A stretch of 64,000 bases of DNA from Membranipora membranacea (taxonomy: Eukaryota > Bryozoa > Gymnolaemata > Cheilostomatida > Membraniporidae). The notes beneath the pieces are model-generated. The model was not told the DNA's origin. It made no database searches and saw nothing but the letters and a program-made list of their open reading frames with translations. The DNA is taken from the NCBI GenBank assembly GCA_914767715.1, contig OU612065.1, forward strand, positions 27,590,001 to 27,654,000, written 5' to 3'. Within the stretch, counting starts at the first letter, position 1; every line of letters begins with the position of its first letter. Of the stretch, positions 37,819 through 63,883 are shown in pieces. The position numbers were made by a program, and so were the translations under genes.

Positions 37819-38016
37819 TTAAAGTTCATCAGTGTGGTGTCTGTGGAGGATTCTATGGTAGAGTTGATGCTGACGCTGTCTGCTCCTGATCATTCTACGT
37901 CTGGCCATAGATCTCCTGCTCACTAAGTTCTGCTGAGCGAGGTATGAGTACAAGCTCCTCTTACGACGAGAGTTGTTAGGATAAGTCAAAGTGAATCTGC
38001 TTCTGTGTGCTGTACT
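37819..38016 (-). other. last exon: furin-type site, Arg/His-rich tail, HTDEL end
   Basis: This 198-base exon encodes the last 65 residues. [10 protein letters not shown] contains RRKR before S, a good furin-type cleavage site. The rest is very rich in Arg and His ([13 protein letters not shown]...). The protein ends HHTDEL before TAA. Cleavage would release a basic peptide of about 45 residues. The last four residues resemble KDEL-type endoplasmic reticulum retrieval signals, but TDEL is not a standard form. Confidence 0.75.
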
Positions 38017-62000: not shown

Positions 62001-63883
62001 CGAGAAATAGTTATCAGGCAGATAGTTGATGTTATTATCCTGTAATGCTCTACAAAATAAAGAGTGATCAGCTGGTTTAAAGCATACAAGCTAAAAATAA
62101 CAATAATTTTAAACATTGATTATAAGGATTGTTGATTTAATGCAAATACAAAATTTGGAGGGTGTTCGTGACTAGGATTAATGAAACGTGCCTGGGCTGC
62201 GCTCATGTTGATGTTCAAACAAACTATGACAATAATTTTTGTTCTGTCCATGATATATAAATGTACAATATTTTACTTACATATGAGTGAGCTCACTAGG
62301 CCAGCTTTGTTTGGTGTAATTATGAGCGAATAGCTGTATGTCGTTATTACCCAGCATAAGTAACCAGGCTTGTGTCCCTGATATGTCAGGAACTCCGGTG
62401 ATCCCTGTGTTATGAATTATTCTACAATACAGTATTCTTCTGTGTTGAGTATCAAAACTTTCATGTAACGAAAGGCAACATTGGCACATGGCTTGAATTA
62501 TAATTGCATGCGAATTCAATAACAAAGAAAAGACTGTGACTTAAACCTTACTTTGCATAGTTTTTTTTGTCTTTTAAGGGGCAAAAACCTTATTTTTGTC
62601 AGAGAACAAATCAATAACTTAATTTAACCTAGCCAAGTTCAGTGAGGAAAATATATTTGCATAATCCACAGCAGGTAAGAGACCATAAACATAAAAATAT
62701 GATTATGGCTGGAACTAATTAGAATGCATGTCCAGAGCAACAAAGCTTTGAAACTAAAAAATTAACATAAAAATGTGCCTAACAGATCTTGTAAGGGATA
62801 ATTCCCTGGTCAGAATTGAAAATTGAAAAGCGGTCTTGTTTTTACAGACCATCTGAGACTGGATACCTCACACATAGCTGATGGTATGGGTTCATTTGTA
62901 GCCCGATGGGCAGCACTGCATTAGGGCCGTTCTGTTTTGGATAAGGTTGATTTTTACTCCAGCTCAACACGATTGTACCCACACAATCATTCTCTCACAA
63001 GCTGCACAACCACTCTTGGCCACTCTTATTTCCTAAAATCTGATTAAATCTTGTGGGAAAACCTCCACCTCACCGTTTTGTACCAGGGGGCCTTTGCATA
63101 TTTAATGTCCGGATATGCCCAGTTTGTTATAAATTCCTTCCTAAAAAAAGTCTCATCATTTAATCTGATGATCTCTTCTATTCATTGGCTTAATCTCATG
63201 GCAATTATGTTTCCCAGCAGAAGAGACAACAATTATTCAGGCCTGGCACACTTTTCAGTTTTCAATAAACTTGCAAATTACTAGCGATTAGGGCTATGTG
63301 TGATGATGGTGATTGTGAAACGTTTTATCAGGGTGTGACCTTAGTGACTAAGATTTAGGAACATTCTAGAATCATGAAGATTGACGAGTTAGCTTCCCAA
63401 TGTCAGATCCAGTAGTAATTTTGGGTAAAGTTCTCCGTAGGCGTGACCTTAGTTATGAAACTATTAGAGAATTCTAGAATCATGCAGATTAATGGTTAGC
63501 TGCCCAATGTCATAGCGGAGATAATTAAATGACTCAGGATTTATCATCAATAACCACCCAATTTTAGAGGCTGGTGAAATGATGTTACGAAGTCAGAAAG
63601 TAGGATGATAATTATTGTAACCCAGATAACTTTTTTGAACAACAAGGTAGTTCGTGTGCTCAACTCTGTTGGGTGCTAATGGCATTCTATTCAATCTACT
63701 CAACCACTGCCCTGACCAACTTGTGGTCGAGATGTGGTCGATATTGGATTGCCGGGACTACGTATATGTATGAGAACCCTAACATGTTATACAAGGGAGA
63801 TAACTCACAGTTCAGTGAGACTGCTGACATGATCAAATGTATCCTCCGTTATCAGGGTGAGCTGTGGTATATTAATGATGGTT
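37819..63883 (-). CDS. giant LRR / fibro-slime / cadherin / discoidin / thrombospondin mosaic protein (5' partial)
   Basis: This is one continuous reading frame of about 2,861 codons over 46 exons on the minus strand; the first exons lie right of the window. Exons from the 5' side: 63883-63809, 62421-62281, 62049-61981, 61738-61667, 61388-61233, 60611-60540, 60050-59904, 58747-58670, 58502-58365, 58086-57931, 57719-57560, 56881-55299, 54892-54690, optional 53635-53630, 53003-52943, 52795-52586, 52435-52167, then exons down to 38016-37819 (see domain blocks). Domain order: LRRs, LRR C-terminal cap, FN3-like, fibro-slime, two cadherin-like, F5/8C, Cys-rich, EGF, thrombospondin type 3, thrombospondin C-terminal, LamG-like, basic tail. 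No transmembrane helix was seen, so it is probably a secreted matrix protein. The LRR-FN3 part joins the fibro-slime part across a 1.7 kb intron in matching phase 1, and no start codon or polyA signal was found in between. Two separate genes remain possible. Confidence 0.75.
38315..40640 (-). other. LamG/concanavalin-like domain block
   Basis: Exons 38445-38315, 38682-38553, 39125-38983, 39986-39787 and the 3' part of 40778-40548. The pattern [13 protein letters not shown]...[10 protein letters not shown]...GWSHVIYRY...ITLAINGT...RTLYLGKS...GFMDDVRIYD is the typical LamG-like (concanavalin-type) fold seen in extracellular proteins. It follows directly after the thrombospondin C-terminal domain, which in ordinary thrombospondins is the last domain. 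Confidence 0.8.
40135..40198. repeat. perfect 31-base inverted repeat (2-base spacer)
   Basis: Arms 40135-40165 and 40168-40198 are exact reverse complements. It lies in the intron between exons 40548 and 39986 of the mosaic gene. Any RNA spanning it would fold into a tight hairpin. No target duplication was seen. Confidence 0.9.
40548..42231 (-). other. thrombospondin C-terminal domain block
   Basis: Exons 40778-40548 (5' part), 41192-41023, 41746-41565, 42231-42004. Diagnostic motifs are [39 protein letters not shown] sequence, and [23 protein letters not shown], in the family's order. In thrombospondins this lectin-like domain packs on the calcium-binding type 3 repeats and mediates cell attachment. 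Confidence 0.9.
43001..43140. repeat. 32-base minisatellite
   Basis: Three near-identical 32-base units (GTTCAAGCAGGGACTTTGGG plus ACAAACTCTCTG) and a degenerate fourth lie in a type 3 repeat intron. A plus-strand open frame across them is an artefact of the repeat. Confidence 0.92.
43848..43930 (+). repeat. tRNA-derived sequence with enlarged anticodon loop, T-tract end
   Basis: A-box-like TAGCTCAGTGTGTAGTGCG and B-box GGGTTCGAATCCCA are present. GTCTG and CAGAT can form the anticodon stem but enclose about 19 bases, and the acceptor arm has mismatches. A run of T follows at once, as in Pol III terminators. It is best read as a tRNA pseudogene or SINE head; an intron-bearing tRNA is less likely. 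Confidence 0.5.
44012..44167. repeat. cluster of four hairpins, partly GC-rich
   Basis: Hairpins: 44012-44032 (10-base arms), 44092-44113 (perfect 22-base palindrome centred on TTAAGCTTAA), 44132-44146 (CACGCC/GGCGTG) and 44149-44167 (GATCGGGC/GCCCGATC). The 44090-44167 part is strikingly GC-rich for the window. It lies in the intron between exons 44644 and 43418, shortly after the tRNA-like sequence. Confidence 0.8.
45355..45482. repeat. degenerate GCATAGAT/ACATGCA tandem region
   Basis: Repeats of CATGCATAGATGCATA type with drift lie in an intron of the type 3 repeat block. Simple sequence. Confidence 0.75.
45867..46821 (-). other. EGF-like domains of thrombospondin type
   Basis: Exons 46027-45867, 46426-46174, 46821-46655. 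Sequences such as [35 protein letters not shown] and [12 protein letters not shown] are EGF domains, partly calcium-binding (DINE.). They sit directly before the type 3 repeats, as in thrombospondins. Confidence 0.88.
47145..48033 (-). other. Cys-rich modules (ephrin-receptor-like / GCC2-GCC3 type)
   Basis: Exons 47288-47145, 47676-47517, 48033-47864. Motifs such as [21 protein letters not shown] and [10 protein letters not shown] are of the C-x-x-C...G-x-Y...C-x-x-C type found in ephrin-receptor-like and GCC2/GCC3 modules. The 5' acceptor of the first exon (after GATGAAG) is chosen from phase and is less certain. Confidence 0.75.
48229..49319 (-). other. F5/8 type C (discoidin) domain
   Basis: Exons 48402-48229, 48895-48760, 49319-49123. 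The pattern SLITASSEQ..., AWKP-like [52 protein letters not shown]....LRMELYGC is diagnostic. The family binds lipids, glycans or collagen-like ligands at cell surfaces. Confidence 0.9.
48513..48540. repeat. 12-base-arm perfect hairpin
   Basis: GGTATTAGCCTG and its reverse complement flank ATAG, in an intron inside the F5/8C block. Confidence 0.85.
49507..51140 (-). other. two cadherin-like repeats
   Basis: Exons 49766-49507, 50484-50315, 50766-50606, 51140-50973. Calcium-site motifs [17 protein letters not shown] and VITDKGSP are visible and the strands [12 protein letters not shown]...YTLILEIID fit. The frame across 50315/49766 needs the donor GA|GTCAGT rather than the nearby GTATAA. Confidence 0.82.
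49862..50117 (-). repeat. dispersed repeat, copy 2
   Basis: This is the reverse-oriented relative of 20995-21246, sharing the same landmarks in the same order. It lies in the intron between exons 50315 and 49766. Confidence 0.75.
51268..53003 (-). other. fibro-slime domain
   Basis: Exons 51499-51268, 51948-51851, 52435-52167, 52795-52586, 53003-52943. The order [60 protein letters not shown] and [19 protein letters not shown] follows the fibro-slime (TIGR02148-like) family first noted in Dictyostelium and bacteria, which is related to PA14-type beta-sandwich carbohydrate-binding folds. It is uncommon in animals as far as I know. Confidence 0.85.
53630..53635 (-). other. possible 6-base microexon
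   Basis: AGATAG sits between a strong acceptor (TTTTTCCTATTTGCAG) and a strong donor (GTAAGC). It would add two codons and keep the frame between 54690 and 53003. The frame also holds if it is skipped. Upstream in-frame sequence has a stop and no ATG, so it is not a first coding exon in that frame. Confidence 0.45.
53745..54320. mobile_element. 576-base non-autonomous TIR element, Mutator-like
   Basis: Terminal inverted repeats of about 60 bases start GGTAACTGTAAATTGCTGAA and differ at only a few positions. Perfect 9-base duplications AATAAAATG lie at 53736-53744 and 54321-54329. No transposase frame is inside. It sits in the intron linking the FN3-like and fibro-slime parts of the mosaic gene. 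Confidence 0.85.
54690..55560 (-). other. LRR C-terminal cap and FN3-like domain
   Basis: After the last repeat a cap reads [15 protein letters not shown]...C...FACAPVN. It is followed by a fibronectin type III-like segment ([11 protein letters not shown]...[22 protein letters not shown]) split between the 3' end of 56881-55299 and 54892-54690. This order is common in extracellular LRR proteins. Confidence 0.78.
55560..63883 (-). other. leucine-rich repeat array (roughly 30-35 repeats)
   Basis: Eleven short exons (63883 to 57560) are nearly all phase 2 at both ends and code for one to a few 24-residue repeats each (L..L.L..N.I..). A single 1.6 kb exon (56881-55299) then carries most of the rest. 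The two exons furthest 5' (63883-63809 and 62421-62281) join directly to give [15 protein letters not shown], so the long intron between them needs no extra exon. Confidence 0.88.
62422..63808. other. long LRR intron, no exon seen
   Basis: About 1.4 kb lies between two LRR exons whose phases and repeat register join exactly. A candidate exon near 62878-62912 does not fit the phase. The plus-strand frame from 63673 is the shadow of the LRR exon at 63809-63883. Confidence 0.6.

Follow-up and report, generated by a model that had tools for sequence, protein, structure and literature searches.

The mega-thrombospondin (mega-TSP) family was named in 2019 by Shoemark et al. (PMC6526912), and the main text of that paper describes its members as proteins of typically >2,700 amino acids with a signal peptide, about 1,000 amino acids of tandem leucine-rich repeats (LRRs) and one or more central cadherin domains, in which the thrombospondin C-terminal region (EGF, type 3 and TSP-C) is followed by a second ConA-like/MAM-like domain and a coiled-coil is lacking. 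In bilaterian members FN3, discoidin and growth-factor-receptor-like Cys-rich domains are typically present as well, the last of these related in fold to Ephrin_rec_like, while discoidin is missing in non-bilaterians; in Hydra, silencing of mega-TSP blocks head regeneration (PMC6526912). Here we examine a minus-strand gene in a 64,000-nucleotide stretch of the bryozoan Membranipora membranacea (assembly GCA_914767715.1, contig OU612065.1, positions 27,590,001 to 27,654,000; hereafter the window). The locus is very probably a mega-TSP gene, a further and divergent member of the family, and its predicted product ends in a furin-like site followed by a KDEL-like C-terminus; this two-part tail recurs on many of the mega-TSP sequences compared and seems to be a novel observation.

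Homologs were taken from the best 120 of 2,582 matches, 64 of which were treated as mega-TSPs and aligned; five other animal-looking rows (P0057, P0061, P0079, P0094 and P0097) were left out, as were bacterial or unlabelled proteins that match about one third of the query, mostly in the type 3 repeats. Homolog groups were assigned from database labels. The tail counts cover 73 rows, that is, 72 homologs and the window protein, with P0079 restored and P0140 and P0141 added from a search with residues 873-1600 (best 120 of 153 matches, a large share of those listed being other cadherins). P0142 and P0143, which are partial and stop short of the C-terminus, were kept out of these counts, and P0097, a TSP_C and LamG protein that also lies outside them, has no tail.

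In the window protein the tail comprises a YP anchor, the sequence SRRKR, a 41-residue linker and TDEL, and the part past RRKR is long and strongly basic. The furin-like RRKR, followed by S, is encoded at 37957..37968, and the terminal TDEL with its stop codon at 37819..37833, both on the minus strand. The alignment consensus terminates RRRR...HxEL. A terminal EL was found in 41 of the 73 rows, and R-x-[KR]-R, the furin motif, occurs within the last 70 residues of all 41 of these versus 0/32 of the others. The L at -1 and the E at -2 are fixed in the tailed rows by the way the rows were selected; position -4 is H in 38 of them, while K, R and T occur there once each (T in the window). The basic run is followed by S in 28 rows, D in 8, N in 3, and G and H in one each, and the linkers comprise 33 distinct sequences of 2-41 residues. 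Among 157 other fetched proteins, which served as a control, none has both features: an EL end is seen in 15, each with the label cadherin-23 and either ITEL or VTEL, and R-x-[KR]-R occurs among the final 70 residues of 12.

The tail is present in cnidarian (13/14), echinoderm (14/17), hemichordate (2/3) and cephalochordate (6/6) rows, or 35 of the 40 named non-spiralian rows, as well as in five of seven other rows and in the window (1/1), and it was found in none of the bivalve (0/22), annelid (0/2) and nemertean (0/1) rows. By eye, the five non-spiralian misses (P0033, P0082, P0099, P0119 and P0130) look like truncated or odd models. Half of the bivalve proteins (11/22) stop no more than 3 residues past the YP anchor, and about 7 more, again judged by eye, have a diverged anchor and end at the equivalent point. 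The matches listed include a Nematostella protein with the label Mega-thrombospondin; it ends RRRKRS...HAEL, and the open reading frame of the Nematostella mega-TSP has been sequenced from cDNA (PMC6526912). The main text of the same paper calls the terminal sequence nonconserved, whereas a common tail is seen here in 41 of 73 rows, and the words 'furin', 'KDEL' and 'proprotein' have no occurrence in that main text. In a limited search of the open-licence literature no published account of the two-part tail was found.

The KDEL receptor reads KDEL-like ends via the free carboxyl end of a protein. HTEL keeps human CES2 in the endoplasmic reticulum (ER), while a form without HTEL is secreted (PMC4624787); HDEL is bound more tightly than KDEL by the receptor, HDEL and HEEL are the ends of human FKBPs, and neither A nor D is accepted at -4 by human receptors (PMC8248988). 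Mega-TSP homologs share a C-terminal HxEL with such ER-retained proteins (HTEL of CES2, HEEL of FKBP), but here a furin-like site precedes the end, the protein belongs to a secreted family, and the window itself reads TDEL. We infer, with a probability of roughly 0.4, that the tail may function as a KDEL-type retrieval tag that furin can remove. Partner binding would fall to the LRR arc together with the PA14-like, cadherin and discoidin modules. The type 3 repeats would take up calcium and pack against the C-terminal lectin-like domain, which is the known mechanism in the thrombospondin family. The KDEL-like end would allow the KDEL receptor to return the protein from the Golgi, and on its onward passage furin would remove the tag, leaving a mature end near TYPNN. 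A tag placed behind a furin site would in this way combine early hold-back with late shedding, and we suggest that early hold-up fits a giant protein that loads many calcium ions before release. Mega-TSPs as a whole may, tentatively, be ER-retrieved proproteins whose module of furin site and HxEL is older than the divergence of cnidarians and bilaterians and disappeared in bivalves; the coding sequence of bivalve genes would, as part of the same joint reading and just as tentatively, now itself end close to the point of cleavage. If true, the tail would be a naturally occurring example of a removable ER-retrieval tag, here carried by a matrix protein.

Several points weigh against retrieval. 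The window tag carries T at -4, where the other 40 tailed rows have H, K or R, and a limited literature search found no receptor tests of T at this position or of HSEL, the commonest form. Absence of the tail from all bivalve, annelid and nemertean rows, the window's nearest rows included, argues that it is not essential. The last exon has a poor codon-use score (-7.1), yet one above those of the other two frames; and the tailed rows are related, so that 41 rows do not equal 41 independent events. It may instead be that the tail is no trafficking tag at all, its polybasic patch binding matrix or glycosaminoglycan and its EL end having another role. The length and strong basicity of the window tail past RRKR favour such a patch, as does the fact that KDEL receptor binding tests of HSEL or TDEL were not found in the limited search; yet H at -4 is kept in 38/41 rows next to the terminal EL while the linkers are free to vary, the pattern expected if a receptor recognises the free C-terminus, and many bivalve proteins end near the would-be furin cut. 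We regard the matrix-binding tail as a serious alternative, less likely than not and only slightly behind the removable retrieval tag, which we prefer.

The gene model was built with a small self-written dynamic-programming exon predictor, the result of which was then corrected by hand (chiefly an LRR exon that had been passed over, a spurious exon of 6 bases, the exons of the Cys-rich part, one LamG exon start and the last exon). Its 41 exons span 63883 to 37819 of the minus strand, with GT-AG at 40/40 internal junctions, and its joined frame encodes 2,703 residues with a single stop, the terminal one at 37819-37821. A first-pass annotation, made from the DNA letters, had described a single open frame of about 2,860 residues with the 5' end missing. 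The single frame stands, while the length has to be revised, and the loss of the 5' end was correctly recognised: the first exon inside the window is internal, the gene's 5' end lies beyond the window, and alignments to the best homologs, which extend further N-terminally, open at about residue 139-208 of the homolog and residue 20 of the model, so that roughly 120-190 N-terminal residues would lie beyond the window. The product is likely a secreted matrix or recognition protein, its signal peptide being expected beyond the window.

Two neighbouring genes, one for an LRR-FN3 protein and one for a fibro-slime/thrombospondin protein, might have been mistaken for one. The intron that would separate them (54690/53003; 1,686 bases) ranks third longest of 40, and an unspliced read past the 54690 donor meets an in-frame stop. 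Part of this intron, however, is an element of 574 bp with 72-nucleotide terminal inverted repeats, 93% complementary (53746-54319, no strand assigned), situated between the FN3-like and fibro-slime exons, and the splice phase matches at the junction. The residues that flank the junction align in register with 12/12 homologs displayed, in a display that omits columns filled in few rows; the Clytia homolog has an insert at this place. In addition, 35 of the 64 animal homologs align as one protein, in a single stretch of >2,600 columns at 34-41% identity. On this homology across the junction the two-gene reading, which we consider very improbable, was dropped; a split at 53-54.6 kb is unsupported, and the single gene across the LRR and thrombospondin parts, as first proposed, is upheld.

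The mega-TSP architectural features that fall inside the window are present, FN3 possibly so: its homologous position is occupied by an FN3-like stretch without a Pfam match. The size, the N-terminal LRRs, the central cadherin-like part, EGF, type 3 and TSP-C, and the second ConA-like domain agree with the published description, and the discoidin and Cys-rich parts with that of the bilaterian members (main text of PMC6526912). The canonical thrombospondins (TSP1-5) share EGF, type 3 repeats and TSP_C with the window protein, to which the latter adds LRR, PA14-like, cadherin, discoidin and second ConA-like domains; the DDD motif of the canonical TSP_C was not found in that of the window (residues 2196-2407). 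The search of animal proteomes for the same domain order, which had been proposed as a check, recovered it in bivalves, a nemertean, an annelid, echinoderms, hemichordates, cephalochordates and, without the discoidin domain, cnidarians; this domain is missing in the two anthozoans compared and 5% covered in Clytia. In a tree of window residues 871-2703 and 30 chosen homologs, made with a quick method and with support from the Shimodaira-Hasegawa-like approximate likelihood ratio test only, the window groups with the nemertean, five bivalve rows and one further row at a support of 100. The branch of the window is long (0.99), and the gene is placed as probably spiralian. In the same tree bivalves hold two diverged mega-TSP groups, with Mytilus, for example, in both. 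Although the best identity of the window to any of the 30 tree homologs is merely 46% over 1,723 columns, the new, lineage-specific mosaic protein of the first-pass annotation is refuted, and hardly credible, in view of the same architecture in spiralians, deuterostomes and cnidarians (the last without discoidin) and of its publication as mega-TSP since 2019 (PMC6526912).

The fibro-slime/PA14-type domain (residues 874-1130; 51367..53003, minus strand) matches TIGR02148 at E 6.3e-9 and 36.2 bits, below the curated cut-off of 45; the Mytilus homolog scores 46.0 bits, and 17/17 mega-TSPs scanned, cnidarians among them, have a match. The original fibro-slime call thus holds as a significant match that is repeated in every homolog scanned, with the window under the curated cut-off. 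Fibro-slime domains, described at first as mostly bacterial or amoebozoan, are not foreign to this family; a bacterial source was rejected, the domain being in all 17 homologs scanned. The Pfam PA14 profile (PF07691) gives 15.6 bits in the window, also below its cut-off (24); the predicted structure of a homolog's domain appears to resemble PA14, and the PDB holds no sequence relatives of the region at E 1. The likeness to fibro-slime and PA14 proteins consists of the TIGR02148 match and this PA14-like fold, and the differences are the two scores below cut-off and the change of the Mytilus acidic pair, where the window reads GGEM at the position of GGDD. The PA14 lectin mechanism is calcium-dependent and tied to an acidic-pair motif, so that GGEM would speak against this mechanism in the window protein. 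Glycan binding by the domain is possible because the predicted fold looks PA14-like, and the proposal of a glycan-binding N-terminal half survives to that extent, with the calcium-dependent lectin mode argued against. Fibro-slime is unmentioned in the main text of PMC6526912, and PA14 is mentioned there for Hydra only, as opposed to the 17/17 matches to TIGR02148 found here. The domain is suggested to be an old and general mega-TSP part and not a Hydra-only feature, and it would stand beside the common tail as an addition to what is known of the family.

The remaining domains, all on the minus strand, follow the order first listed, from LRR to LamG-like, which profile matches bear out apart from the FN3-like part. 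The LRR region (residues 1-780, 8 exons, 55375..63883) is delimited by Pfam LRR_8 (1.7e-80, 14 stretches) and by exon phases, with Pfam LRR matches spanning most of the first 780 residues. For the FN3-like stretch (residues 781-873, 54690..55374) Pfam gives nothing at E 10; in 12 homologs the corresponding region aligns with it in register, with 17-32% identity. The cadherin-like region (residues 1131-1416, 49507..51366) has two Pfam Cadherin stretches above cut-off (E 4.9e-9 and 3.7e-10 in two scans), and it is followed by the F5/8 type C (discoidin) domain (48244..49319; F5_F8_type_C 3.2e-18), the Cys-rich, Ephrin_rec_like region (47145..48033; two Pfam stretches, E 1.3e-6 and 2.0e-7 in two scans) and the EGF-like domains (45626..46791; EGF_CA 8.1e-14, EGF_3 5e-11). 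The thrombospondin type 3 calcium-binding repeats (42151..45625; TSP_3 2.1e-51, 7 stretches) and the thrombospondin C-terminal, L-lectin-like domain (40642..42150; TSP_C 1.9e-59) agree with the earlier assignment of a C-terminal half of calcium-binding type, and the second ConA-like domain (38631..40641) matches Laminin_G_3 at 2.4e-11.

Elsewhere in the window, inverted copies of a 132-nucleotide repeat, 85% complementary, lie at 21057-21188 and 49920-50051, one of them in an intron of the gene. A rough gene model on the plus strand (68-9565) matches the MAM domain in five stretches and has linkers rich in Thr/Ser, and a rough model on the minus strand (34474-7328), in which the predictor may have fused two genes, shows two patatin-like phospholipase stretches.

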